Origin: Methylomonas sp.
GTDB lineage: Bacteria; Pseudomonadota; Gammaproteobacteria; Methylococcales; Methylomonadaceae
Direction: 5' to 3'
Length of the DNA: 43,677 nucleotides
Assembly: GCA_026989395.1 (NCBI GenBank)
Contig: JALSJK010000157.1
Coordinates: forward strand, 1 to 43,677
Shown piece by piece: positions 11,174-25,276 of this stretch. Below the pieces are notes generated by a model. The model was not told where the DNA came from. It saw only the letters and a list, made by a program, of their open reading frames with translations, and made no database searches. The position numbers were made by a program, and so were the translations under genes. How positions within the stretch are numbered: position 1 is the first letter of the stretch; each line of letters starts with the position of its first letter.

Positions 11174-11842
11174 TTAGGTAAGCTGATTATAATATTTTTC
11201 AAGATCAGTAAGTCTTTCAGGTGTGCCAATATCCATCCAGAAACCACAATGAATTTCTCCGCTAACTTGGTTTTTCTGGGCTGCATATCGAAGTAATGGT
11301 GCTAGTTTGGATTTTCCTGGAGGTGTGTTAGCAAACAGTTCTGGGCTATAAATGCCAATTCCACTAAAGGTAAATTTTTCTGTGGCCTGCGTTTTGATGG
11401 TGTTGTTTTCCAAGCCAAAATCTCCTCCAGGGTGATGTTTTGGGTTTTTAATGAGTACCAAATGCGCTAAATCAATTTTTTTGTCAGTGAGGCGGGATAA
11501 AGGGAAGTCGCAGGCAATATCAGCATTAATAGCCAGAAACGGGGCGTTGCCGAGGAGTGGGAGTGCATGGATAATACCGCCAGCTGTTTCCAGCGCATTC
11601 TGACCCTCTCTCGAGTATGTGATATTGGCATTAAATCGAGAGCCATTACCAAGCGTATTTTCAATTTGTGCGCCCAAATAAGCTAGGTTGATAACCAGAT
11701 CTGTAATGCCGGCAGCCACAAGAGATTCGATAGTGTAAACAATGAGTGGCTTACCATTCACTAGAAGCAAGGGTTTTGGGGTGGTATCAGTAAGCGGCTT
11801 CATTCGTTCGCCTCTGCCGGCTGCTAAGATAAGGGCTTTCAT
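11174..11842 (-). CDS. murU: N-acetylmuramate alpha-1-phosphate uridylyltransferase
   Basis: A 222-residue nucleotidyltransferase that makes UDP-MurNAc from MurNAc-1-phosphate in the peptidoglycan recycling bypass that avoids de novo, fosfomycin-sensitive MurA synthesis. The N-terminal signature is MKALILAAGRGERMKPLTDTTPKPLL, followed by NADIACDFPL (metal-binding region) and a C-terminal CGFWMDIGTPERLTDLEKYY. ATG at 11842 is chosen because it overlaps the amgK stop as ATGA; an ATG four codons upstream is less plausible. The adjacent amgK and the divergent lptD-surA reproduce the Pseudomonas arrangement, which distinguishes it from other sugar nucleotidyltransferases. Confidence 0.92.
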   Translation of the reverse strand: MKALILAAGRGERMKPLTDTTPKPLLLVNGKPLIVYTIESLVAAGITDLVINLAYLGAQIENTLGNGSRFNANITYSREGQNALETAGGIIHALPLLGNAPFLAINADIACDFPLSRLTDKKIDLAHLVLIKNPKHHPGGDFGLENNTIKTQATEKFTFSGIGIYSPELFANTPPGKSKLAPLLRYAAQKNQVSGEIHCGFWMDIGTPERLTDLEKYYNQLT

Positions 11843-12840
11843 TTTAGCTGCCAAGCGGGCATGACTGTGTTTTGTAAAAAAATATTGAAGGCATTTAATT
11901 CCGGGTATTTGGCGCTAGTGTTAATGATATAGTTAATAGTTCTTGGAATGTCATGTAAATAATCTGACTTATTATCCCGTAAATGAAGTCTCGCAAAAAT
12001 ACCAATGGCTTTTAGATGCCTTTGAATGCCCATTAGGTCAAACCAATAGTTAAAAGTATCATAATTGCAATTGATGTGCCCAGCGTCTTTGAGGTGCAGG
12101 AAGTATTTATTTAGCCATTGATCAATCATCTGTTCAGGCCATTCAATATAGCAATCTTTAAGCAGTGATGCCAGGTCATAGGTAACAGGACCAACAACGG
12201 CATCTTGAAAATCAATAATGCCGGGGTTGTTTGTTGATGTTACCATTAAATTTCTTGAGTGATAGTCCCGGTGAACACATGTTTTGGATTGTTCTAATGC
12301 AGATTTGACAAGTAGGTGTTTGGTTTTTTCTAGGGTTTTTTGTTGACCGAAATTGGCTTTGATGTTTAATTTTTTTTCAAGAAACCATTCACTAAAAATA
12401 TCAATCTCTTTGCTTAATAGCTGAAAATCATATAAAGGTAATTTACAATTCATACAATCAATATTTGACTGAAGTTTGAATAGGCTATCAAGTGCTTGTT
12501 CATAGAGGCTATTAGCATTTTCTTGATTTAATAAATCCAGATAGCATTGATTACCAAAGTCTTCTAGTAATAGAAAGCCTTGCTCCCGGTTGATTTGATA
12601 TATCTTTGGGATGTTTATTCCAGTAGAGGCAAATAAACCAGCCACTTCAATGAAAGCTTTAATGTTTTCTTTTTCAGGTGGCGCATCCATGACTATATAG
12701 GTTTGACTATTACAAGATACCCGAAAATAACGACGGAAACTGGCATCGCTGGATGCAGGAGCAAAAAAATCAATAGACATTTTGAGCTCATTTTCTAACC
12801 ATGATTGAATGGCTGTTTTTCTGATATCTTGTTTTTGCAT
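11839..12840 (-). CDS. amgK: N-acetylmuramate/N-acetylglucosamine anomeric kinase
   Basis: A 333-residue kinase of the aminoglycoside-phosphotransferase fold that phosphorylates the anomeric carbon of MurNAc (and GlcNAc), feeding MurU. The N-lobe reads FFAPASSDASFRRYFRVSC and YIVMDAPPEKENIKAF. The catalytic loop is CVHRDYHSRNLMV (about residues 190-202) and the metal-binding segment is GIIDFQDAVVGPVTYDLASLLKDCY. The length fits AmgK. It is four bases overlapped with murU and separated by 96 bp from divergent lptD. It could be mistaken for an aminoglycoside resistance kinase, but the context strongly favours cell-wall recycling. Confidence 0.92.
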   Translation of the reverse strand: MQKQDIRKTAIQSWLENELKMSIDFFAPASSDASFRRYFRVSCNSQTYIVMDAPPEKENIKAFIEVAGLFASTGINIPKIYQINREQGFLLLEDFGNQCYLDLLNQENANSLYEQALDSLFKLQSNIDCMNCKLPLYDFQLLSKEIDIFSEWFLEKKLNIKANFGQQKTLEKTKHLLVKSALEQSKTCVHRDYHSRNLMVTSTNNPGIIDFQDAVVGPVTYDLASLLKDCYIEWPEQMIDQWLNKYFLHLKDAGHINCNYDTFNYWFDLMGIQRHLKAIGIFARLHLRDNKSDYLHDIPRTINYIINTSAKYPELNAFNIFLQNTVMPAWQLK

Positions 12841-12936
12841 ATAAGATTCTTTTTAAAAGACTTTAGTAAATTCAGGTAAAATATTCGGCTGCATTCAGTT
12901 TTTTATCTACAGTTTAAATAATACCTTTCATTTTCA

Positions 12937-15879
12937 ATGTTTGTGCGTTTTGTTACAGGGATCTTTTTTTTATTGTATACCGTTTTAGTTGGTGCGGATG
13001 AGTCGTTAACCGGCTGGAATTGCGAACAAACAACAGAAAACAAGGAATGGCGGTGCGTCAGTCAAAAAAAAATCGAACCTGCCGATTCATCTTCTGCAAC
13101 GCAACCTGTTGCCGAACAGGAAATCAATGGTAACAATGCTGAAATTAATGATATTCCAGAATCTCCTGCTTCCTCTGTTGATCTCAATACCCCATTATCG
13201 GTGCCGACTGCGACGGCATTTGAACCGCCCCGAACCGAAAATCTACAAACTGGCTGGCATTGCAAGGCCAATCCTGAAAAAGGCACATGGGATTGTAATC
13301 TAGTTGGGCCAGATCCCCAAAGCCAGCCACAATTAATGGCCGAAGAGGATTATTCAATTATAGGTGTTATTGGCAAACCTACCTATGATCAAAGGGAAGA
13401 GAATATTTTTCTAACTTTGATGAACGAGTTCAAAACCAACCCCTGGGGAGCTTGTGTTGGTAGCAAGAAAGCCGCTCCTCCCCAATTTTTGACCGAAATG
13501 GGGCTTAGGGAAACTACTCCAATGGAAATTATTTCTGACTATTCTGAAATTTTTGATGAAGAAATCAGTAGTTTTATGGGAAATGTTGATTTGCGGCGAG
13601 CAGATCAACATATGATGGCAGGTATGGCGACTTACGATTCTGTTGCTGAAACGATGGATTTACAAGGTCATGTTTTATACAGCGAAAATGGTTTAGCGCT
13701 TTTTAGTGATTCCGCATTTTTAAAACTGGCTGATGACAAGGCTAGATTAAGAAATGTTTTGTTTATTACTCCCGAGGCGCCATTAAGAGGTCAGGCTAAG
13801 GTCGCTTATCGGGATTCAGCAACTTTTTCCTATTATAAAGAGGCAAATTTCACTAGTTGTCCGCCTGGCAATCAGGATTGGATTATGCATGCTTCACGGC
13901 TAAAACTGAATAAAAAAACGGGTAAAGGGTCTGCAAAACATGCGTGGCTTGAGTTTAAAGGGATTCCTTTTTTATATTCCCCATACATATCTTTTCCTCT
14001 TGATAATCGTAGGCTAACTGGGTTTTTAACGCCAAGCTGGGATAATACTGACCGAAGTGGTTTTGGGGTTCACATTCCTTTTTACTGGAATATTGCACCA
14101 AATTATGATGCATTATTCTGGGCACGGTATTACAGTAAACGCGGCTTTGCTTTTGGTTCGCAGTTCAGATATTTGACTGAATCATCCGAAGGGTCTTTTG
14201 AATTTGAGCTCTTGCCAAATGATGATTTGGCGGGAGAAAGTAGAGGCGGTTTGTTTGATGATAACGGCAATCAGGTTGCGCTTGACGATGGTACGTTAGA
14301 CCAGTTTGCAACGACAAAATCTTTTCGTGGAGCTGCTCGTTTCAAGAATACAACGCGATTTAACGACACCTTAAGTTCAGATATGGATTTGAATTATGTT
14401 TCTGATCCTTATTATTTTGATGACTTAGGAAACAGCTTGCGTATTTCAACTGCTTCCTATTTGCATAGTTTCGCAAATTTTTCTTATAACGATCAATTTG
14501 GGAATAAGGATGAAGAGCAAACGGAGGTCGCATTTAAAGCTCAGGTGGAAAATTACCAGAATATCGATATCAGACAAACCAGTTTGCCTTATCAGAGATT
14601 ACCGCAAGTAACGTTTGATATTGACAGGGATTTTGACTTTATGCCGCTATCTTTGGGGCTGGAGACTGAATATGTTTATTTTCATAAAAAGAATATTGAT
14701 GATTTTTTTGGCATTGAACTGGATGATTATCGCTCGCCATCGATTATTAAAGCTGAACAAGACAGGATCAGCAGGGGAGAAAATGTTGATCCTCTGATTG
14801 GTCAGCGCTTTGATATCAAGCCTACAGTCAGCTTTCCCTATGAAACAGCCAGTTTTTTTATTACTCCCAAGGTTTCCTTGCAGCATACCCAGTATTGGTT
14901 GAAGAATCAGCAAACAGATAAGCCAAGCAGAACTTCCAGAACCTTGCCAATTGCATCGCTTGATACAGGTTTGTTTTTTGAGCGTGAATTTGGGGATCAG
15001 GATTCAGGTTTTATTCATACCATCGAACCGCGTTTATTTTATGTTTATATCCCATATAAGGATCAGGATGATATTCCGTTATTTGATACGGGAGAGTTTG
15101 ATTTCACCGGCAGCCAGCTTTTTAGAGAAAATCGTTTCAGTGGTAGTGACAGAATACAAGACACCAATCAGTTAACATACGCTTTGACGTCCCGATTATT
15201 GGAATCAGATAGTGGAAGGGAATTATTGAATTTTACAGTGGGTCAGATTGTCTATTTTCAGGATAGGAAAGTGACGCTGACTGAAAATGACGATCCTGAA
15301 ACCCATACATTGTCAAATCTCGTCGTTGGTTTAAGTGGCAGAATAACTGACCATTTAACATTTTCTTCTGGAGTGCAGTGGAATCCTGATACTAGTTATT
15401 TTGATCGTTATCAGGCAGCATTACGTTACCGTGGACCAAATAGACAATTACTGAATATTGGTTATCGTTTCAGAAGAAGTGAGTTTCAGGTTGATAAGAA
15501 TACTGGGCTGGTAAGACGCGACCCGGTAACAAATAAAGAATTATTCAAGAAAAAAGGTATCGATCAGTTTGATGTTTCTTTTTTGTGGCCAGTGTACGAG
15601 GGCTGGAGTGTAATTGGTCGATGGCAATACTCCTTTCTCGATAAGGTTACTCTGGATAGTTTTTTGGGAGTGGAATTGGATAATTGCTGTTGGCGTTTTC
15701 GTATTCTTGGAAGATATTTTGTTAGTAATCTTGATAGCAATACAATAAGCGACAATATTGAGCCTGAAACTGCTATTTTCTTCCAGTTTGAACTTAAAGG
15801 CTTAAGTAGTTTTGGCGAAGACTTGGATATTTTCCTTGAAAGGCAGATAAATGGTTATCGAAGATACCTTGATGAGTAA
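12937..15879 (+). CDS. lptD: LPS-assembly outer-membrane protein LptD
   Basis: A 980-residue outer-membrane beta-barrel that, with LptE, inserts lipopolysaccharide into the outer leaflet. A signal peptide (FVTGIFFLLYTVLVGADE) is followed by a linker holding two short Trp-Cys modules, GWNCEQTTENKEWRC and GWHCKANPEKGTWDC. The OstA/LptA-like beta-taco domain spans roughly residues 200-330 (with ANFTSCPPGNQDWIMHASRLKL), and the barrel spans about 340-980. The Cys pair in LDNCCWRFRILGRYF matches the C-terminal CC used for LptD disulfides. The length exceeds E. coli LptD (about 784) because of the N-terminal linker and larger barrel loops. It is divergent from amgK and overlaps surA by one base. 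Confidence 0.96.
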   Translation: MFVRFVTGIFFLLYTVLVGADESLTGWNCEQTTENKEWRCVSQKKIEPADSSSATQPVAEQEINGNNAEINDIPESPASSVDLNTPLSVPTATAFEPPRTENLQTGWHCKANPEKGTWDCNLVGPDPQSQPQLMAEEDYSIIGVIGKPTYDQREENIFLTLMNEFKTNPWGACVGSKKAAPPQFLTEMGLRETTPMEIISDYSEIFDEEISSFMGNVDLRRADQHMMAGMATYDSVAETMDLQGHVLYSENGLALFSDSAFLKLADDKARLRNVLFITPEAPLRGQAKVAYRDSATFSYYKEANFTSCPPGNQDWIMHASRLKLNKKTGKGSAKHAWLEFKGIPFLYSPYISFPLDNRRLTGFLTPSWDNTDRSGFGVHIPFYWNIAPNYDALFWARYYSKRGFAFGSQFRYLTESSEGSFEFELLPNDDLAGESRGGLFDDNGNQVALDDGTLDQFATTKSFRGAARFKNTTRFNDTLSSDMDLNYVSDPYYFDDLGNSLRISTASYLHSFANFSYNDQFGNKDEEQTEVAFKAQVENYQNIDIRQTSLPYQRLPQVTFDIDRDFDFMPLSLGLETEYVYFHKKNIDDFFGIELDDYRSPSIIKAEQDRISRGENVDPLIGQRFDIKPTVSFPYETASFFITPKVSLQHTQYWLKNQQTDKPSRTSRTLPIASLDTGLFFEREFGDQDSGFIHTIEPRLFYVYIPYKDQDDIPLFDTGEFDFTGSQLFRENRFSGSDRIQDTNQLTYALTSRLLESDSGRELLNFTVGQIVYFQDRKVTLTENDDPETHTLSNLVVGLSGRITDHLTFSSGVQWNPDTSYFDRYQAALRYRGPNRQLLNIGYRFRRSEFQVDKNTGLVRRDPVTNKELFKKKGIDQFDVSFLWPVYEGWSVIGRWQYSFLDKVTLDSFLGVELDNCCWRFRILGRYFVSNLDSNTISDNIEPETAIFFQFELKGLSSFGEDLDIFLERQINGYRRYLDE

Positions 15880-17189
15880 TGATGGTGAAAATTAGAATTA
15901 AGTGGTGGGTGGCTGTTATTTTGGCTGGAAAGCTAATGTCAACGGGTTCTATGGTATATGCAGAATATCTGGACCGTATTGTTGCGGTTGTTGAAGATGA
16001 CGTAATTCTGGATAGTGAGTTATATAGGGAAGTAGCTGCCATTACTGAAAAGCTGAAGGCCTCCAAAACCATGATGCCACCAGCTTATGTGGTGCGCAGA
16101 CAGGTGCTGGAGAGATTGATTATTGATAAGCTACAGAGGTTGGTGGCTGAGAAATCTGGTATCAGGGTTACCGATGAGATGTTAAGAGGTTCAGTGACTG
16201 ATATCGCCAGGCAAAATGGCATGAATCTGCAGCAATTTAGAGCCGAGCTGGAAAAGCAGGGCATGTCTTATGATAGCTTTGTGGAGAGTGTTAGGAACGA
16301 AATTATTATAAATCAGCTGCGTGGACGAGAGATTGGTAGCCGCATTAAAGTTACTGACCGGGAAATTGATCATTATTTGGAAACTCAGGGGCAGGCTGGC
16401 GCAGATAAAATTAAGTACCGATTAGGGCATATCCTGATTGCTGTTCCCGAGGGTGCTTCTGCAACCAAAATACAGAAGGCCAGAGCTAAAGCTGAAGCGA
16501 TTATAAAAGACTTAAGAGCGGGTGCAGATTTTAAACGGAGAGCAATTTCTGTTTCTGCGGGGGGTCAAGCTTTAAAAGGCGGAGATTTAGGGTGGCGAAC
16601 AATAGGTCAAATTCCTACTTTGTTTGTGGATTACGTCAAGGATTTACGTGCTGGGGATGTGTCTGAACCGATTAGAAGTCCGAGTGGTTTTCATATTATT
16701 AAATTGCTCGAAGCCAAGGGTTTAAGTGACGATGTTCATATCATCACCCAAACCAGGGCGCGTCATATATTGATAAAAACTGATGAATTGACTAATGATG
16801 CAGAGGCAAAAAGGCGGTTGCTTGATATCAAGGAAAGAATTGCCAATGGCGAAAGTTTTGAAACTTTGGCCAAATCTAATTCTGACGATACCGTGACTGC
16901 CCTGAAAGGTGGTGATTTAGGCTGGGTTGAGCCTAGGGCTCTTGTCCCCCCTTTTGAGAAAGCCATGAAAGCCTTGGCTATCAATGAAATTAGCGAACCA
17001 GTACAAACCCAGTTTGGTTGGCATATTATTCAAGTACTGGACCGAAAGGAAAAGGATAATAGCGAAGAATTTAAAAGAAACCAGATTAAGGAAGAGATCA
17101 GAAAGCGTAAAATTGAAGAAGAAACCGAGCTTTGGTTGAGGCGGTTGCGTGATGAAGCCTATGTTGAAATTCATATGGATGCAATGTAG
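15879..17189 (+). CDS. surA: Periplasmic chaperone / peptidyl-prolyl isomerase SurA
   Basis: A 436-residue periplasmic chaperone for outer-membrane proteins, including LptD. The signal peptide IKWWVAVILAGKLMSTGSMVYA is followed by the N-terminal chaperone domain (LDRIVAVVEDDVILDSEL, about 30-170). Two parvulin domains follow: about 175-275 (YRLGHILIAVPEG to GFHIIKLLEA) and about 288-385 (TRARHILIKTDEL to GWHIIQVLDRK). The C-terminal helix has IKEEIRKRKIEEETELWLRRLRDEAYVEI. The lptD stop and surA start overlap as TAATG; an immediately following ATG at 15882 would also serve. The usual downstream pdxA and rsmA are absent; a different gene follows directly. Confidence 0.95.
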   Translation: MMVKIRIKWWVAVILAGKLMSTGSMVYAEYLDRIVAVVEDDVILDSELYREVAAITEKLKASKTMMPPAYVVRRQVLERLIIDKLQRLVAEKSGIRVTDEMLRGSVTDIARQNGMNLQQFRAELEKQGMSYDSFVESVRNEIIINQLRGREIGSRIKVTDREIDHYLETQGQAGADKIKYRLGHILIAVPEGASATKIQKARAKAEAIIKDLRAGADFKRRAISVSAGGQALKGGDLGWRTIGQIPTLFVDYVKDLRAGDVSEPIRSPSGFHIIKLLEAKGLSDDVHIITQTRARHILIKTDELTNDAEAKRRLLDIKERIANGESFETLAKSNSDDTVTALKGGDLGWVEPRALVPPFEKAMKALAINEISEPVQTQFGWHIIQVLDRKEKDNSEEFKRNQIKEEIRKRKIEEETELWLRRLRDEAYVEIHMDAM

Positions 17190-17210
17190 TTGGTAGACCA
17201 AAACAGCAGT

Positions 17211-17762
17211 ATGAAAAAAGATGTTCAGTTCCAAAAGCTATTGAAAGATAGAATAAAGAAACTTGTTAAGGATAAAGATTTAACTGAATATATTGTTTCG
17301 CAAAAACAAATATTGTCAGAATTGGATATTGATCCGATTGTCGGTGCAGCGGCGCTGAATTTTTTATTGCAGGAACAATTTTATAGAGCCGAAGAAGAAA
17401 AAAAATTTAAAGCTGAACGGAGTCAAGCTTGTGCTTTACAAAATATGCGAATGTTTTGGTATCGTATCGAGGTTGGAAATGAACACAGGATTTCGGTCGA
17501 AATATTAAAACAAGTTTTGGTCGAAGAGGCTGGTGTTGAAAGGCGTTTTATTGGGCGCATTGATATTCGCGATCAATATACATTGATTCAACTGCCAAAT
17601 GGAATGCCGACCGAACTTTTACAGCATTTGAAAACAGTTACTATAAATCAGAAGCAACTAGCCATTCAGCGGTTAAAAAAAAGGCCAGGAAAAAAACACC
17701 GGAGAAAAAAACCATCAGCCAGCCACAAAAGGGTTGCTGCGCATCTCCTCGCCAAAAGTTGA
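17211..17762 (+). CDS. Stand-alone DeaD/CsdA-type RNA-binding domain protein
   Basis: About 183 residues from ATG 17211; a TTG at 17190, directly after the surA stop, would add seven. No helicase core is present. Residues about 1-75 are a charged helical region ending in LSELDIDPIVGAAALNFLLQEQF, resembling the segment after the helicase core of DeaD. Residues about 85-160 match the DbpA/CsdA C-terminal RRM-like domain: MRMFWYRIEVGNEHRIS, EEAGVERRFIGRIDIRDQYTLIQLP and NGMPTELLQHLKTV. The tail is very basic (KKRPGKKHRRKKPSASHKR), as expected for RNA contact. The 3' end overlaps the convergent hydrolase gene by 48 bp. Probable role: RNA or ribosome-assembly binding. That is an inference from the domain; the partner is unknown. 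Confidence 0.8.
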   Translation: MKKDVQFQKLLKDRIKKLVKDKDLTEYIVSQKQILSELDIDPIVGAAALNFLLQEQFYRAEEEKKFKAERSQACALQNMRMFWYRIEVGNEHRISVEILKQVLVEEAGVERRFIGRIDIRDQYTLIQLPNGMPTELLQHLKTVTINQKQLAIQRLKKRPGKKHRRKKPSASHKRVAAHLLAKS

Positions 17763-18347
17763 CATGGGTCCATGGCCAGGTATAAAAGCAACTTCCTTAC
17801 CCAAAGGCCATAGTTTATCCTTGATGGAGTGGATTAGTGTATGGAAGTCGCCTTTTGGGAAGTCTGTCCGGCCAATGGAGCCATTAAATAGTACATCGCC
17901 AACCCAAGCCAGTTTTTCCTTGGGATTAAAGAAAACAATATGGCCCGGCGTATGGCCTGGGCAATGGATGACATCAAGCTTGATTTCGCCGAATTCAACC
18001 TTATCTCCATCTTTGAGCCAACAGTCCGGGGAGAACGCATCGACTGCTGGAAAACCAAATGATGCGCATTGAGAAGGAAGTGCTTCCAGCCAAAATTGAT
18101 CATCATGATGAGGGCCTTCGACGGGTACAGAAAACATTGATGTTAGTTCTGGAGTGGCGCCTACATGATCCAGGTGTCCGTGAGTGAGAAAAATTTTTTC
18201 GAGTTCAGCCTGCTGTTTATCCAGCGCAGACAGAATTAAATCTACATCACCACCCGGATCCACCAAGGCAGCTTTGTTGGTTTTTTCACAAATCAGTAAA
18301 GAACAATTCTGCTGGTATGGAGTTACCGGGATAATGATGTATTTCAT
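17715..18347 (-). CDS. MBL-fold metallohydrolase, GloB/YcbL type
   Basis: A 210-residue metallo-beta-lactamase-fold hydrolase. The metal-binding signature THGHLDHVGAT (about residues 55-65) is followed by the further ligands CPGHTPGH (His about 132), GDVLF (Asp about 151) and a late PGHGP (His about 193), so a full binuclear site is present. Length and the YQQNCSLLIC start resemble YcbL-like type II glyoxalases, which hydrolyse thioesters such as S-lactoylglutathione, but it lacks the long C-terminal substrate domain of GloB. The exact substrate is unknown. It is transcribed towards the RNA-binding protein gene with a 48-bp coding overlap, and is divergent from rnd with a 65-bp gap. Confidence 0.87.
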   Translation of the reverse strand: MKYIIIPVTPYQQNCSLLICEKTNKAALVDPGGDVDLILSALDKQQAELEKIFLTHGHLDHVGATPELTSMFSVPVEGPHHDDQFWLEALPSQCASFGFPAVDAFSPDCWLKDGDKVEFGEIKLDVIHCPGHTPGHIVFFNPKEKLAWVGDVLFNGSIGRTDFPKGDFHTLIHSIKDKLWPLGKEVAFIPGHGPMSTFGEEMRSNPFVAG

Positions 18348-18412
18348 AGCCGTATTTATAAAAATCAGAAATTTATTTTACCATTCAATCACTAAGCTTT
18401 TAACAATAATTT

Positions 18413-19564
18413 ATGCAAGCCATTCAATATATCGATACACCAGAAAAACTAGAGCAATTATGCAGCAAAATCCAACAAGAAAAATGGCTGGCTCTTGATA
18501 CAGAATTCCTTCGGGAAAAGACCTATTATCCAAAGTTTTGCCTTTTGCAGATAGCCACTTTGGAATGGGTGGCTTGTGTTGATCCTTTGGTTTTACCTTC
18601 TCTGGACTTGCTTTTTGAAGTGCTTAACAGTCATGATATTGTTAAGGTTTTACATTCTTGTCAGCAAGACTTTGAAATTTTTTATCATTTAACCGGGAAA
18701 ATTCTTGAGCCTGTATTCGATACCCAGCTGGCAGCTCCAGTTTTAGGCATTCAGGATAATCCCGGTTACGCAATGCTGGTATCAACATACTTAAATATTA
18801 ATTTGGACAAAGCGCACACTAGGACCGATTGGAGTATTCGTCCTTTAAGTGAAGAGCAGCTTAAATATGCGGCGGATGATGTGATTTATTTGGCGAAGAT
18901 ATATCAGATCATGATTAAAAAATTAGCTGATATGGGGAGATCAGACTGGTTAAAAGAAGATTTTGCCAAGCTTTTGCAAGCTGATTTGTATGATATTCCG
19001 GTAGAAAATGCTTGGTTAAAAATCCGGGGGAAAAATAAATTAACCGGGAAGCAGTTATCTGTCCTTCAGCATTTGGCTGAGTGGCGGGAAAGAAACGCGA
19101 AACAGGAAAATAAACCGAGAGGGTGGTTGCTTAAAGATGATCTATTACTGGATATAGCCCGATTGCAGCCGACGTCGATGCCTGAATTTTTTAAAATAAG
19201 AAATATGAATATGCGTACTGCCAAACAACATGGCAGGCAGTTGTGTGAGCTCATTAAAAAGGCACAAAATCAGGCGCCGAAAAAATTACACGAGCATGGA
19301 AAATCCGCAAAAAAAACACCACAACAAGAAGCAATAATTGATGTTTTGGGTGCGATTGTGCGTGTCAGGGCAGATCAAAACTCATTGAATCCTTCAATTC
19401 TCGCAACTCGTAAGGATATTGAAAGGCTTTTGCTTGAGGATCAAAACAGTCCGCTCTTAAAAGGTTGGCGTTATGAGATGGCGGGAAAGGAGCTAAGCCA
19501 GATGCTACAAGGGATGGCTTTACTGAAAATTACAGAGAGAGGGGTTATTGTCGAAAATAATTAA
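18413..19564 (+). CDS. rnd: Ribonuclease D
   Basis: A 383-residue DEDD-family 3'-5' exoribonuclease that trims tRNA and other small RNA precursors. Exonuclease motifs are LALDTEFLREKTYYPKFCLLQIA (DxE, about residues 25-45), VLHSCQQDFEIF (about 80-92) and YAADDVIYLAKIY (about 150-163). The HRDC domain follows (about 205-285, with LTGKQLSVLQHLAEWRERNAKQENKPRGWLLKDD). The C-terminal extension has normal length. The gene is divergent from the MBL hydrolase and converges on the TolC-family gene at 19607, where a 10-bp perfect inverted repeat lies between the stops. Confidence 0.95.
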   Translation: MQAIQYIDTPEKLEQLCSKIQQEKWLALDTEFLREKTYYPKFCLLQIATLEWVACVDPLVLPSLDLLFEVLNSHDIVKVLHSCQQDFEIFYHLTGKILEPVFDTQLAAPVLGIQDNPGYAMLVSTYLNINLDKAHTRTDWSIRPLSEEQLKYAADDVIYLAKIYQIMIKKLADMGRSDWLKEDFAKLLQADLYDIPVENAWLKIRGKNKLTGKQLSVLQHLAEWRERNAKQENKPRGWLLKDDLLLDIARLQPTSMPEFFKIRNMNMRTAKQHGRQLCELIKKAQNQAPKKLHEHGKSAKKTPQQEAIIDVLGAIVRVRADQNSLNPSILATRKDIERLLLEDQNSPLLKGWRYEMAGKELSQMLQGMALLKITERGVIVENN

Positions 19565-19606: not shown

Positions 19607-20944
19607 CTAGTTTTTAATGGGCAAGGTTTCTTCAGGTAATTGGGTGCCCAGGAATTGATTTAGCATACCTTTACTTGTCAAGATGCGATACATGGCAAAC
19701 TGCTGATCATACAGGGCATTAACATAAGCGCTTTTTGCCAAATACATTTCATTCGCGGAATCAAGTAAATCCAACAAGGTGCGCTGACCAATATTAAATT
19801 GTTTTTGATAGGCCTGGTGCGTTTTGATGCTGGCATCACTGTGGCGTTTGAAGAAGACCATCTGGTTTTTAACTGTTTGATAAGCAGTCCAGGATAATCT
19901 CATGCTTTCAACAACCAGGCGGTAGGTGTTATCTCGTATGTTTTTTGCTTCGGTAATCCGGTAGGCTGTTTCATTCCGTCTGGCGATATCTTTGCCCCCA
20001 TTAAAAACATTCCATTGCATTCTGACCATGGCTGTGAGGTCTTCATTTTTGTAAGGAACGCCGTCCAGATTATTATTCCAGGAATAGCCAGCCTCAAAAT
20101 CTACTCTTGGGTAATAGCTCGAGGCCGCGGTTTTGTGTTGAGCAAATGCAGATTCAATATCAGAATTAGCAGATTTTAAGATTGGATGGTTAGCAATTGC
20201 TTCTTCAATGGCTGCATCGACACTTTCCGGGATGCTGTCGATTGGATCGGGTGCTGGTTCCAAATCTTTGGGTAATACTCCGATAACACGCTGAAAAGCT
20301 GTTTCAGTATCGTATAAATTTCCTTCCTCGGATTTCACATTACTTTCAGCTAAAGCCAAGCGTCCTAGAGATTGCTGGGCATCAGCTTTTTTTCCAACGC
20401 CCCTTTCTGCACGCAGTAATATTTGATCATTCGTGCGTTGGTGAATTTCCAGGTTTTCTTTGGCAAGTTGTAGTAAGTCCTTGCGGCGTAATACATTCAG
20501 ATAAGCTTCGACAGCATCAAGTGCAGTAATTTCAGCCTGGCCAAAAACACTGTAAGCGCGAGCATCGGTTCTGGCTTTTTGACGTTTAACTTCGCTAGGT
20601 GTGGCAAAGCCATCAAACAGCATTTGTCTTAGGCTTGCAGAAAGTTCGGTGCGATCATAATCAACGTTTCTTTTTTTTCCGTCAGGATTGCCGCGCCGTG
20701 TGACAGGGTTATTACTTCTTTCATAACCATAGCCGGCATGTAAATCAACAGATGGAAAATAACTGGATTTTGCTTGACTGATTTCTTGTTCTACGGCCAG
20801 GCGCTCGGCTCTAGCACGTTGAATTTCCGGGTTTTCGTCGATTGTTAGCTGCACAGCATCCTGTAAATTTTGTGCATAGGCATTAGCTGATAGAGTGATG
20901 CTGGCGGCGAGACAGCCTATAATATAAAAAAGTGATACTCGCAT
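19607..20944 (-). CDS. TolC-family outer-membrane channel of a type I secretion system
   Basis: A 445-residue outer-membrane efflux/secretion channel. The signal peptide ends near ANAYAQ (about residue 24). The mature protein starts LQDAVQLTIDENPEIQRARAERLAVEQEI and repeats the pattern at midpoint (VDAAIEEAIANHPILKSANSDIESAFAQHK), the internal duplication typical of TolC trimers forming an alpha-barrel tunnel. A C-terminal segment includes SAYVNALYDQQFAMYRIL. Its position beside the LapB/LapC-type genes indicates the outer-membrane component for adhesin export (LapE-like). A gap of 125 bp and a good promoter (21018-21047) separate it from the regulator gene, so it can be expressed on its own. 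Confidence 0.9.
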   Translation of the reverse strand: MRVSLFYIIGCLAASITLSANAYAQNLQDAVQLTIDENPEIQRARAERLAVEQEISQAKSSYFPSVDLHAGYGYERSNNPVTRRGNPDGKKRNVDYDRTELSASLRQMLFDGFATPSEVKRQKARTDARAYSVFGQAEITALDAVEAYLNVLRRKDLLQLAKENLEIHQRTNDQILLRAERGVGKKADAQQSLGRLALAESNVKSEEGNLYDTETAFQRVIGVLPKDLEPAPDPIDSIPESVDAAIEEAIANHPILKSANSDIESAFAQHKTAASSYYPRVDFEAGYSWNNNLDGVPYKNEDLTAMVRMQWNVFNGGKDIARRNETAYRITEAKNIRDNTYRLVVESMRLSWTAYQTVKNQMVFFKRHSDASIKTHQAYQKQFNIGQRTLLDLLDSANEMYLAKSAYVNALYDQQFAMYRILTSKGMLNQFLGTQLPEETLPIKN

Positions 20945-21017
20945 GGTTTTCTCTGTTTTTTAAGTTTGAGAGTTTAGATGATCGGCTTAGGAATGCGAAA
21001 ATTACCCTGTTGCGAGT

Positions 21018-21047
21018 ATTATATTAGAAATCAACAGAATATCACAA
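21018..21047 (-). promoter_or_regulatory. Predicted sigma70 promoter for the TolC-family gene
   Basis: On the minus strand TTGTGA (21047-21042) and a perfect TATAAT (21023-21018) are separated by 18 nt. They lie about 75 bp upstream of the TolC-family start, in the only sizeable gap of this gene set. The -10 matches the consensus fully; the -35 matches four of six bases. Confidence 0.6.
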
Positions 21048-21069
21048 GTTTATGATGTATTAAGATTGT

Positions 21070-21720
21070 TTACATACTATTGTGGTTTGAATTAATTTCG
21101 GAAATAGAAATTGCTAAATGGAGGCGATCAGGAATGTGAAGTTTTTTATAGATTGAAGTTAAGTGGGCTTTCACAGTCCGTTCAGAAATGTCTAACGATG
21201 AAGCTATAACCTTATTGGTTTTCCCATCTCCAATCATTTTTGCGACATCAAGTTCCCGATTTGATAGCTCTTTCAATAATTGTTCATATTTTTTGTTTTT
21301 GTCAATTTTGATATTATTTTTTGGTATTTTGGCAAAAGCTCCGATAACTTTTGGGAGTAGGTGGCGCTGTAGCCATATTTCACCAGCCAGAACACTTTTA
21401 ACGGCTTTGAGAAACAGCGAGTCTGGATAGCCATTTTCACAGTAGCCGGAAGCTCCAGAGGCAATGGCTTGAATTTGGGCATTTTCGGGGTATTGATCCC
21501 CCATGATCAAGACTTTAGCAGGAAATTTTTCTAAATAACTAAACTCAATGATGTTTTCAATGAAAAATGAAGTATCAAGGATGATGAGCGATTCGGGTTT
21601 GATGTTAGCGGGTATATCAAACACGTCGGTTGTATATTGAACTGTATAGGAATCACTCAGCGCATTTTTCCATTTTTTTAACAGGCGCGGGCTTTTTGTG
21701 AAAATAAAAATATTGCTCAT
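21070..21720 (-). CDS. LuxR-family regulator with degenerate receiver domain
   Basis: A 216-residue protein with the layout of a NarL/FixJ response regulator. The C-terminal HTH (about 148-205) reads LSNRELDVAKMIGDGKTNKVIASSLDISERTVKAHLTSIYKKL and is intact. The N-terminal domain (about 1-125) has the receiver pattern with a candidate phospho-acceptor Asp in LIILDTSFF and a late ALA-like GASGYCENGYPDSLFLKAVKSVLAG segment. However, the acidic pair normally found at the end of strand 1 is replaced (MSNIFIFTKSPRLL), and the strand-4 Thr/Ser appears as Gly (KVLIMGD). It may therefore be an atypical, phosphorylation-independent receiver. It sits between the HlyD-type adaptor (20-bp gap) and the TolC gene, suggesting control of adhesin secretion. 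No cognate histidine kinase is near. Confidence 0.85.
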   Translation of the reverse strand: MSNIFIFTKSPRLLKKWKNALSDSYTVQYTTDVFDIPANIKPESLIILDTSFFIENIIEFSYLEKFPAKVLIMGDQYPENAQIQAIASGASGYCENGYPDSLFLKAVKSVLAGEIWLQRHLLPKVIGAFAKIPKNNIKIDKNKKYEQLLKELSNRELDVAKMIGDGKTNKVIASSLDISERTVKAHLTSIYKKLHIPDRLHLAISISEINSNHNSM

Positions 21721-21740
21721 ATTATGGGAAAAAAATTCAG

Positions 21741-23096
21741 CTATCTTTCTTTTAAAGCATTCGCTTTAGCTTTGAGTATTGGTTTTAATATATAGTCCAG
21801 TACTGATTTTTTTCCAGTTAAGATGTCAATATCTGCGGTCATGCCCGCAATTATTTCCAGTTTTTCACCACTTTTTTGTAAATAGTTTTTTTCTGTACGA
21901 AGGCGAATCAAAAAATAGCTTTGCCCGTCATTTTCATCAATAATGCTGTCTGCGCTGATGTGTTCCAAGATTGCTGGTAAGCCGCCATAAATAGAGAAAT
22001 CATAGGCAGTCAGTTTTACCATTGCCTTTTGGCCGGGGTGTAGAAACGCAATATCAGCCGGGCGGATTTTTGCTTCTACCAATAATTGATCTTCAACGGG
22101 AACAATTTCCAGCAAATCCATCCCTGGTTGGATGACGCCGCCAAGTGTATTGATTTTTAATTGTTTGACAACTCCTTTCACTGGGGAAGTGACCAATGTT
22201 CTGTTGACCCGGTCTTTCAGAGCAAGGCTGGTTTCCGAAGATCTTTTGAGTTCGGCTTTGTTTTTGTTAAGTTCTTCGAGTGCTTTGGTTTGAAAATGAG
22301 CTTTTTGTTCCTTGATTTTTTGTTCTGCCTCGTTGATGGCCGATTGAATTCTTGGCATAGCCAGCTTAGTTGAAGTTAGCTCGCCATAAAGGTCGTTAGC
22401 ATTTCTCCGCAAACGTAAAATTTCAACTTCCGACATCGCTCCCTGGGCAACTAAGGGTTCAGACATTTTCAATTCTTTACTGAGAAGGCGATAACTTCTT
22501 GATATCCTGTTTTTTTTTGCTTTAAGTTCTAATAATTCCTGCTGTTTTTGTGCTAATTGATGTTGCAGCGTTTCGATATTAGCATTGAGTTCGGAAATTT
22601 CAGACTCATACAGTGATTTGGTGTTTTTAGCTAGCTCCGGGAACTTTTCGGTGACTTCTTTCGGCATTTTTAATGGTTGTTGATAAGCTTCGGCAGTAAG
22701 TCTGGCAATATTGGCGAGTAGCTCATAGTAATTGATTTGACTTTCATTAAGAGACGACGCGAAGCGGATATCATCAAGACGCAGCAATGGTTGGCCTTTT
22801 TTGACTAGGTCGCCTTCTTTAACCATGATTTCGGCAAGAATTCCACCCTCCAGGTTTTGAATAACCTGGATTTGGCTGGAAGGAATGATTTTGCCTCTAC
22901 CCCGGGTGACTTCATCAAGCTTGGCATAATTTGCCCAGATTAAAGCAATAATGACAAAAAAAAAGCTTATCCATAGCAGGATATGAGTTTTCAGTGGCGC
23001 GACATAAAGACTGGTGTTTTGGGTGTTGGTTATAAAGTCTTGATCTTGTTCTTGAATTTGATTCTTGACTTTTAATTCGATAATTTTATTGAGCAT
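21741..23096 (-). CDS. HlyD/LapC-type type I secretion membrane-fusion protein
   Basis: A 451-residue periplasmic adaptor that bridges the inner-membrane ABC exporter and the TolC channel. A short cytosolic N-terminus precedes one membrane helix (ILLWISFFFVIIALIWANY, about 34-53). The beta-barrel/lipoyl start is VTRGRGKIIPSSQIQVIQNLEGGILAEIMVKEGDLVKKGQPLLRLD (about 63-108). A long coiled-coil hairpin spans about 115-285. The second lipoyl half and the barrel follow (VTSPVKGVVKQLKINTLGGVIQPGMDLLEIVP and HPGQKAMVKLTAYDFSIYGGLPAILEHISAD). It starts 14 bp after the ABC exporter gene, in one operon with it. The class is that of LapC-type adaptors for giant adhesins. Confidence 0.92.
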   Translation of the reverse strand: MLNKIIELKVKNQIQEQDQDFITNTQNTSLYVAPLKTHILLWISFFFVIIALIWANYAKLDEVTRGRGKIIPSSQIQVIQNLEGGILAEIMVKEGDLVKKGQPLLRLDDIRFASSLNESQINYYELLANIARLTAEAYQQPLKMPKEVTEKFPELAKNTKSLYESEISELNANIETLQHQLAQKQQELLELKAKKNRISRSYRLLSKELKMSEPLVAQGAMSEVEILRLRRNANDLYGELTSTKLAMPRIQSAINEAEQKIKEQKAHFQTKALEELNKNKAELKRSSETSLALKDRVNRTLVTSPVKGVVKQLKINTLGGVIQPGMDLLEIVPVEDQLLVEAKIRPADIAFLHPGQKAMVKLTAYDFSIYGGLPAILEHISADSIIDENDGQSYFLIRLRTEKNYLQKSGEKLEIIAGMTADIDILTGKKSVLDYILKPILKAKANALKER

Positions 23097-23110
23097 GGTC
23101 GTCGTTTCAG

Positions 23111-25276
23111 TTAAACAGAAGCAGAAATTCTGCCGTGTTTCAGGGCGTCCAGGACTTGCTGTTTAGCGCCATCGGCAACTATTTTTCCATTATCAAGAAC
23201 GATGATTCTGTCGACAAGAGTCAGTAGTGATGCGCGATGTGTTATTAAAATAAGCGTTTGGTTTTCTTGAAGGTGGTTTGCAAAGCGTTGTTTGAAAGTT
23301 TCCTCGCTACGACTGTCCATGGCATTGGTTGGTTCATCCAAAATATAGATGGGGGGGTTATGTAATAAAGCTCTGGCAAGGGCGATACTTTGTTTTTGGC
23401 CGCCAGATAAGGCCGCGCCTCTTTCGCCAACCTGAATATCCAGCCCAAGCGCATTTTGGTTGGTAAAATCACTTACCCCGGCAATTTTTGCAGCTTTGGA
23501 AATGCTATGTTCATCTACATATTTACCGCCAAAAATAATATTGTCATAAATTGTGCCTCGCATCAGAGAAATATCTTGAGGGACATAACCAATTTGTCGT
23601 CTAACTGTGGCCGGATAGATTTGCTTGATTTCGGTGCCGTCGATGAGAATTGATCCTTCTTGCGGTTCGTATAAAGCCAGGATCAATTTTTCTAGCGTGC
23701 TTTTTCCAGAACCAATGCGTCCGAGAATCGCTATTTTTTCACCGGCTTTTATTTTAAAAGAAACTTGATTAAGTGTCTTCTGCGGTTGGTCAGGGTAGCT
23801 GAAGGATACATTTTTAAATTCTATGTTTCCTGTTGAAGCGGGGCGCGTAAGAGGTTTCTTGTTGGTTCGTTCGCCGGGTAAATTCATCAGTTCATTCAAT
23901 GAACCCAGTGACGCTTTAGCCTGATGGTAACGAGTCAGCAACGAAGCTACCTGTGACATGGGAGCCAGGCATCTGCCGGTCAAAATGGTGCAGGCAATTA
24001 GGCCGCCAGTCGTAAGGTCGCCATCAGCAATTTTATACACGCCAAAAATCACCACGCTAATTGAGGCGATTTGTTGGAAAAAGAGTGAAACATGAATAGC
24101 AATTGAAGCCAAAAATCGTGATTTCATGCCAAGTTTGGCAATTTCCCCAATATTTTCTTCCCATTGTTTTTGTAGTTGTCCTTCGGCATTGACGGTTTTT
24201 ATTGGCTCCAGATTGCCGAGCGCTTCAATCAGAGTGGCGCTTTTTGCGGCTGACAGCCCGAATAGTTTTTGGATCGTACTTTTTAAGGGTTTTTGAATGA
24301 TAAGCCCGGCGGCCAAAGCTAACGGAATCGCAATTAATGGAATGGTTACCAGGCTTTCCCCAATCAGCCAGATGATAGCCAGGAAAAATATTAAAAAAGG
24401 CAGGTCTATTAATGTAGCGAGTGTGGCTGAGGTTAAAAAGTCCCGAAATGATTCAAATTCATGCAGGTTATTGGCAAAAGCACCTGTCGAAGCAGGTTTG
24501 ACGGCCATACGAATGCCGAGTATTTTTTCAAAGATTGTGGATGACAAAATGATGTCAGCCCGCTTTCCTGCGGCATCAATGAAATAACCCCGCAATATCT
24601 TCATTAACAAGTCAAATGAGAAAACAATGAAAACCCCTGCGGCTAACACCCAAAGTGTTTCGATTGCCTGATTTGGAACAACGCGATCATAAACGTTCAT
24701 AATGAACAAGGGAGATGCCAGCGCAAAAAGGTTAATCAAAATAGAGGCAATAAGTACCTCGCTATAAACAGGCCAGGATTGGAAAATAACATCCCAGAAC
24801 CAGTGTTTCGGAGTGGATGCCTGACCAGTATTCATAGAATCATCAAATTGATACTGAGGTTGAACAAAAATAGCAAAACCGGAATAGTATTCTTGCAGAT
24901 CCTCGGGATCGATGATTTTTTCTCCCGTTTGAGTTTCTGGAATGACGACATGGATCTGATGTTTTTCTTTTCTGGTCAGAATGCAGGTTTGTTGGTTATT
25001 GAGAATCAAAATGGCTGGAAGCACCAAGCTGGAGATTTGCTCAAGCGGTCTTTGTATAAGCGATGCAGATAATCCTGCTCGTTCGGCAGCTCTAATGAAT
25101 AATGCTGGTGTGAGTTTGCGGTCTTCTAATGGTAATCCGGCAATCAAAAAATCAGCTGATTGAGGGCGTTTATAGAGCTTGCAAATTGCAAGCAATGCAA
25201 GAAGTAGCGGGTCATCTTGATTTGTCGCGGGATCAAATAATTGGCCGTGATGAATTTTTGGGTCGCTGGTTTCCAT
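23111..25276 (-). CDS. LapB/LssB-type type I secretion permease/ATPase
   Basis: A 721-residue ABC exporter half-transporter. Residues about 1-140 form a C39-peptidase-like domain without a recognisable catalytic Cys/His arrangement, as usual in exporters of RTX adhesins. The ABC transmembrane domain spans about 165-450 (LIASILINLFALASPLFIMNVYDRVVPNQAIETL and later helices). The nucleotide-binding domain spans about 485-715, with Walker A GRIGSGKST, Q-loop GYVPQD, signature LSGGQKQSIALARALL, Walker B IYILDEPT and switch histidine in LITHRAS. Followed by the HlyD-type adaptor, it belongs to the LapB family that exports large biofilm adhesins. No large RTX adhesin gene, lapD or lapG lies in the window, so the cargo is inferred only by family. 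Confidence 0.93.
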   Translation of the reverse strand: METSDPKIHHGQLFDPATNQDDPLLLALLAICKLYKRPQSADFLIAGLPLEDRKLTPALFIRAAERAGLSASLIQRPLEQISSLVLPAILILNNQQTCILTRKEKHQIHVVIPETQTGEKIIDPEDLQEYYSGFAIFVQPQYQFDDSMNTGQASTPKHWFWDVIFQSWPVYSEVLIASILINLFALASPLFIMNVYDRVVPNQAIETLWVLAAGVFIVFSFDLLMKILRGYFIDAAGKRADIILSSTIFEKILGIRMAVKPASTGAFANNLHEFESFRDFLTSATLATLIDLPFLIFFLAIIWLIGESLVTIPLIAIPLALAAGLIIQKPLKSTIQKLFGLSAAKSATLIEALGNLEPIKTVNAEGQLQKQWEENIGEIAKLGMKSRFLASIAIHVSLFFQQIASISVVIFGVYKIADGDLTTGGLIACTILTGRCLAPMSQVASLLTRYHQAKASLGSLNELMNLPGERTNKKPLTRPASTGNIEFKNVSFSYPDQPQKTLNQVSFKIKAGEKIAILGRIGSGKSTLEKLILALYEPQEGSILIDGTEIKQIYPATVRRQIGYVPQDISLMRGTIYDNIIFGGKYVDEHSISKAAKIAGVSDFTNQNALGLDIQVGERGAALSGGQKQSIALARALLHNPPIYILDEPTNAMDSRSEETFKQRFANHLQENQTLILITHRASLLTLVDRIIVLDNGKIVADGAKQQVLDALKHGRISASV

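Follow-up and report, generated by a model that had tools for sequence, protein, structure and literature searches.

The window, a 43,677-nucleotide stretch of DNA, contains a gene for a helicase-free DeaD-like RNA-binding protein directly downstream of surA (15879–17189, +), which in turn follows lptD (12937–15879, +); both neighbors were identified with Pfam and NCBIfam models, the NCBIfam scores being under cut-off. The open reading frame spans 17190–17762 (+) and opens with a TTG directly after the surA stop codon, giving 190 aa. An in-frame ATG at 17211 is the likelier start, since the same ATG is present in one congener (G001) and the first start codon in another (G002) is an ATG 20 nt past surA; the resulting protein (17211–17762, +) has 183 aa, a mass of 21.5 kDa, and a pI of 10.0. 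Judging from the spacing, the gene is probably co-transcribed with lptD and surA. Its 3′ end overlaps by 48 nt (17715–17762) that of a convergent gene (17715–18347, −) encoding a metallo-beta-lactamase-fold hydrolase (Pfam and NCBIfam; GloB-like, under the NCBIfam cut-off). The C-termini of the protein in three members of the genus are alike (LAKS), perhaps because the two coding strands share this stretch.

The hydrolase gene is followed by rnd, encoding RNase D (18413–19564, +; TIGR01388, 355 bits against a cut-off of 298.95), and by genes for TolC-like, LuxR-type regulatory, HlyD-like, and C39-peptidase ABC transporter proteins in a row (19607–25276), which may form a cluster for type I secretion or peptide export. 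Divergent from lptD are a phosphotransferase (APH) and a nucleotidyltransferase gene (11174–12840), which we take to resemble the AmgK/MurU cell-wall recycling pair.

The encoded protein consists of a three-helix N-terminal domain (17214–17405, +), a CsdA/DbpA-type RNA-binding domain (RBD) with an RRM fold (17457–17669, +), and a basic C-terminal tail (17673–17759, +). PF03880, the DbpA RNA-binding domain, is matched over residues 90–160 with 62.8 bits (cut-off 25.6), and the tail (residues 162–190) contains 12 K/R and no D/E, for a charge of +12. Pfam matched no helicase-core family (DEAD, Helicase_C) in the window protein, four helicase motif strings are present in none of 36 free-standing homologs (hereafter members), and the two RecA domains with helicase motifs that define a DEAD-box helicase are missing. 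NCBIfam returned weak matches to the C-terminal part of the DeaD (PRK11634; 45 bits, cut-off 989) and DbpA (16.2 bits, cut-off 524) models. An earlier note, made from the sequence without database searches, had described a post-helicase helical segment, a CsdA/DbpA RBD, and a basic tail with no DEAD-box core, and the PF03880 match and the DeaD profile match described below agree with it. The protein combines known parts in a new way, and its gene is real and conserved; conservation throughout the family makes a chance open reading frame untenable.

The N-terminal domain was assigned by several approaches. PF25399 (DeaD_dimer) aligns with residues 18–63 of the window protein at 18 bits, under the curated cut-off of 23, and reaches E 0.01 or better in 32 of the 36 members. 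In profile-profile comparison, an N-terminal profile built from residues 1–65 of the window row matched the part of DeaD that follows RecA2 (96.5%, E 7.5e-10), and seven control DeaD segments, six from the helicase core and one from a linker, scored 0.1–1.8% against the same profile. The AlphaFold2 model of the whole protein (mean pLDDT 78.5, pTM 0.45) consists of three helices and an RRM followed by a tail with little order; that of the N-terminal domain alone has a pLDDT of 91.1. This domain model superposes on residues 372–424 of CshA (VIA; 52 residues, rmsd 1.8) with a Z of 6.1, a value common among helical bundles and weak when taken alone, and Foldseek with the domain alone placed 5ivl (CshA) first of two matches at a weak E of 3.2. 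Based on these comparisons, we identify the helical segment as a homolog of the dimerization domain of DeaD. Dimeric DEAD-box helicases with a small helical domain of this kind include Hera, CshA, CsdA, and DDX21, as named in PMC7721647. Alignment A4 comprises 32 of the 36 members and omits L017, L025, and L032, which have long linkers, and L037, which lacks the domain.

The RBD is the most conserved part of the protein, with a mean column entropy of 1.30 bits compared to 2.22 for the helices, 2.63 for the tail, and 3.27 for the linker; nine columns are invariant over the 36 members. PF03880 is found in all members at E 0.01 or better, the RBD profile matches that of DeaD at 99.7% (E 2.8e-26), and the best PDB sequence match is 5b88, the RBD of Escherichia coli DeaD (E 2.3e-9). 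With the whole-protein model, Foldseek likewise returned 5b88 (1.9e-5) and 3moj (7.0e-5); the leading rows from Foldseek and VIA, with 3moj, 7pli, and 7pmq among the matches, cover the RBD part only. The net charge of the tail is positive in every member (+2 to +12), and is +6 to +14 in 18 DeaDs. Together, the fold and the basic tail suggest that the window protein binds RNA. The residue equivalent to K427 of YxiN, placed by way of a marginal match (2g0c, E 0.075), is E in 23 members, D in 6, N, S, and Q in 2 each, and a gap in 1, and is N in all 18 aligned DeaDs, while the I436-equivalent is I in all 36 members. With E or D at the K427-equivalent in 29 of the 36, YxiN-like recognition of 23S hairpin 92 is not expected and no target can be named. 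Pfam matches to T3SS_needle_reg and FrhB_FdhB_C, each confined to a single member, were taken as spurious. In alignment A1, L029 carries a masked stretch.

In all 36 family genomes examined, surA is the immediate upstream neighbor on the same strand, with the first start codon of the gene −8 to 155 nt away from the stop codon of surA, so the linkage that the earlier note proposed to check is conserved. Of 80 named loci, 78 show the same linkage; pooling the two sets, which overlap, gives 114 of 116. The two exceptions are L142, where the contig ends, and L099, whose 4 kb of upstream DNA lacks surA. In the latter (Methylobacter sp. KS41), a DDE transposase gene is located upstream (L099 1871–2986) and the surA linkage is broken. 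The same note placed the gene where pdxA and rsmA usually follow surA, and 10 of 12 outgroup genomes from the order indeed show this arrangement, the exceptions being G046 and G057. Within the DNA examined for 20 long family loci there were no matches to pdxA or rsmA, and in the window's own genome the two are side by side on another contig. The pdxA-rsmA pair has been parted from lptD-surA, and the window gene thus occupies its place in these genomes.

The host genome carries pmoA, and the family of the host genomes is presumably of the Methylomonadaceae type. Among 61 genomes (its own and 60 relatives), a free-standing ORF of 164–238 aa is present in 36 of the 37 family genomes; of the 24 non-family genomes of the order in this search, 18 gave matches, all in frames of at least 549 aa, and 6 gave none. 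A broader profile search, extending the homolog search that had been suggested for the two-part architecture, found the gene in 223 of 237 family genomes, with best E values no higher than 1.8e-47, and scored it as absent in 14 (best E 2.1e-18 to 5.2e-31); the 223 include a short form in genus g15, of which 20 were seen directly and two (G089, G091) were counted on profile score. The 74 other genomes of the order contained no member by the same search (best score 1.7e-33, never more than one match), with frame lengths available for 18 (549–1076 aa) and the remainder judged by score alone. Across 323 genomes of the class, the only free-standing matches among those listed come from the two sampled genomes that belong to the family. 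The one short frame outside the family among the matches listed (G480, 264 aa) is a DeaD truncated where its contig begins.

Named records encoding a relative (the best 80 of 184; 212 pattern matches) belong to Methylobacter, Methylomonas, Crenothrix, Methylovulum, Methylomicrobium, Methylocucumis, and unnamed Methylococcales; two metagenome-assembled genomes that encode one bear other labels (Geobacteraceae, proteobacterium). A tblastn search of a phage collection gave one match, a DeaD in a Salmonella record, and PHROGs gave none at E 0.01, so a phage origin was dismissed. We could not find a description of the gene in CC-licensed PMC papers, a scope outside which subscription papers fall, and as far as that literature reaches the gene appears to be undescribed.

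Comparison with the full DeaD of the genome, also called for in the earlier note, revealed two PF03880 proteins above cut-off, the window protein and a DeaD of 571 aa that is retained beside it. The aligned DeaDs (18, of which 16 are from the family) keep both domains, and we therefore rejected the idea that the window protein is one half of a split DeaD. These 18 are drawn from 21 references (alignment A2), after omission of L058, which was inadvertent, of L053, which is cut by its contig, and of L002, which represents the same gene as L052. The DeaDs of the window's genus (L052, L053, and L054, from G000, G001, and G002) are poorer matches to the free-standing protein (E 5.5e-7 to 4.1e-6) than those of the other matching family genomes (E 5.9e-9 to 1.2e-16).

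In a 69-row tree, the 36 free-standing proteins form a single clan, separated from 33 DeaDs by a branch with 100/100 support (the tree is unrooted and some branches are long), which points to a single origin at or before the base of the family. The dN/dS values are 0.072 and 0.205 between the window genome and its two congeners (dS >1 in both) and 0.199 and 0.286 in two other pairs; SurA and the neighboring genes are more constrained where they can be compared. These values, well below 1, and the presence of the gene in most of the family rule out a recent truncation of deaD in one strain, the outcome that would have undone the earlier proposal. Divergence of the free-standing protein tracks that of SurA (Mantel r 0.78, 0 of 2000 permutations), as vertical inheritance alone would produce, at a mean p-distance of 0.615 versus 0.377 for SurA.

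The gene is not uniform throughout the family. In genus g15, the dimerization domain has been lost in 20 of 21 genomes searched (23 g15 genomes are in the family set) and the RBD and tail have been kept: frames in the interval from the surA stop codon to the RBD score at most −0.5 bits for the dimerization domain, compared to 54–80 bits for 13 controls; of these controls, 12 are among the 35 rows that built the model and one (G081, L192) is independent. The RBD of the short form (L193–L212) scores 118–134 bits, surA is directly upstream in all 19 with enough flank, and the RBD and tail evolve with a dN/dS of 0.05–0.25 (median 0.14) over 108 of 190 pairs. Because g15 dropped the dimerization domain and retained the remainder, the RBD and tail look like the lasting core of the protein, with RNA binding as its apparent conserved function; dimerization, predicted to be kept by most members, cannot be part of the function of every member insofar as it depends on the N-terminal domain. 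In three genomes of genus g8 (G009, G259, G260), surA is intact and followed by other genes, and DeaD is the sole match; these were counted as losses, which indicates that the gene is not needed everywhere. In G009, a short PLD-like ORF (PF13091; L076 4730–5119) comes after surA. Among the other genomes scored as absent, G096 and G228 have a contig end at the site and are not established losses, and in G165 one of the two matches may be fragmentary.

We lean toward the interpretation that the protein is a free-standing C-terminal half of DeaD, of single origin, that binds or chaperones RNA independently of ATP, usually as a dimer. A free copy of the C-terminal half of DeaD/CsdA would have become established behind surA once, at or before the base of the methanotroph family. 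The RBD would grip a single-stranded or loop RNA element, the basic tail would hold the adjoining duplex, as in Hera, and the helical domain would form a bivalent homodimer in most members. As there is no ATPase core, its action should be ATP-independent. The protein would then probably chaperone or protect structured RNAs (rRNA precursors, mRNA, or both), partly by sharing or masking the targets of DeaD. The three parts are the same as those of a helicase extension composed of dimerization domain, RBD, and tail, which makes an RNA clamp that is bivalent and works without ATP the simplest interpretation. On this reading, the accessory half of a DEAD-box helicase lives as a gene of its own that is near-universal in one methanotroph family.

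Alternatively, the window protein may be a partner of DeaD itself, forming mixed dimers through the shared dimerization domain that combine one motor with two RBDs and tune the activity or targeting of the helicase. Homology of the two dimerization domains, the dimeric helicases known to carry such a domain (PMC7721647), and the retention of a full DeaD in the same genome speak for this, but over the 51 aligned columns the domain of the window protein is only 24% identical to that of its DeaD counterpart, and the loss of the domain in g15 argues against recruitment of DeaD by this route as an obligate function. Partnership through the shared domain is possible for the long forms and excluded for the short ones, and overall we regard it as rather unlikely. 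A bolder version, to which we assign a still lower probability, is that this helicase-free paralog acts in trans on its parent DeaD, through mixed dimers and shared RNA sites, and that the lptD-surA operon thereby sets DeaD activity, with only competition for RNA left to the g15 proteins. If this hypothesis is correct, a trans-acting paralog would link outer-membrane biogenesis to RNA remodeling.

The position of the gene raises another possibility, that the protein is an autoregulator that binds its own lptD-surA transcript and couples outer-membrane biogenesis genes to the state of RNA. The near-invariant placement behind surA would fit, as would the divergence that follows SurA, for which vertical descent alone suffices. 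However, Rfam gave no match at gathering threshold in 12500–18700, promoter- and terminator-like sites in 15700–18500 are no more frequent than in shuffled sequences, and L099 keeps the gene without surA in the 4 kb upstream; we therefore doubt this explanation. That the protein is a decaying or accidental DeaD fragment without function is highly improbable: it evolves faster than SurA and has been lost in some genomes, but its occurrence across the family, dN/dS, and invariant columns are not those of a relic. For the preferred ATP-independent RNA binder, the genomes offer a natural deletion series (with the dimerization domain, without it, and with the gene lost) in which the dimerization and RNA-binding roles are separately testable.

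Several known systems invite comparison. RraA of E. coli, which binds DEAD-box helicases, is comparable only if the window protein is a DeaD partner and is described as trimeric (PMC3814787). TPANIC_1029 of Treponema pallidum, a "DbpA RNA binding domain protein" listed separately from a DEAD/DEAH helicase (PMC8525777), has the same domain annotation; the likeness is one of annotation alone and implies no orthology. Among the functions suggested in the earlier note were also a ribosome-assembly factor and a cold-adaptation factor; the present evidence speaks neither for nor against the latter, and a paper on methanotrophs and temperature mentions rhlB and rhlE (PMC10030640). The RBD has the RRM fold of YxiN/DbpA and the isoleucine equivalent to I436, and differs in the acidic residue that most members have in place of K427. 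The C-terminal extension of Hera from Thermus thermophilus, likened here by description rather than by sequence, also combines a dimerization domain, an RBD, and a basic tail with five arginines (PMC3695512), although it belongs to a helicase. With gammaproteobacterial DeaD/CsdA, the window protein shares the dimerization domain, the CsdA-type RBD, and the basic tail in the same order; it differs in having no helicase core, in being encoded by its own gene beside a retained DeaD, and in lying on its own side of the 100/100 branch.
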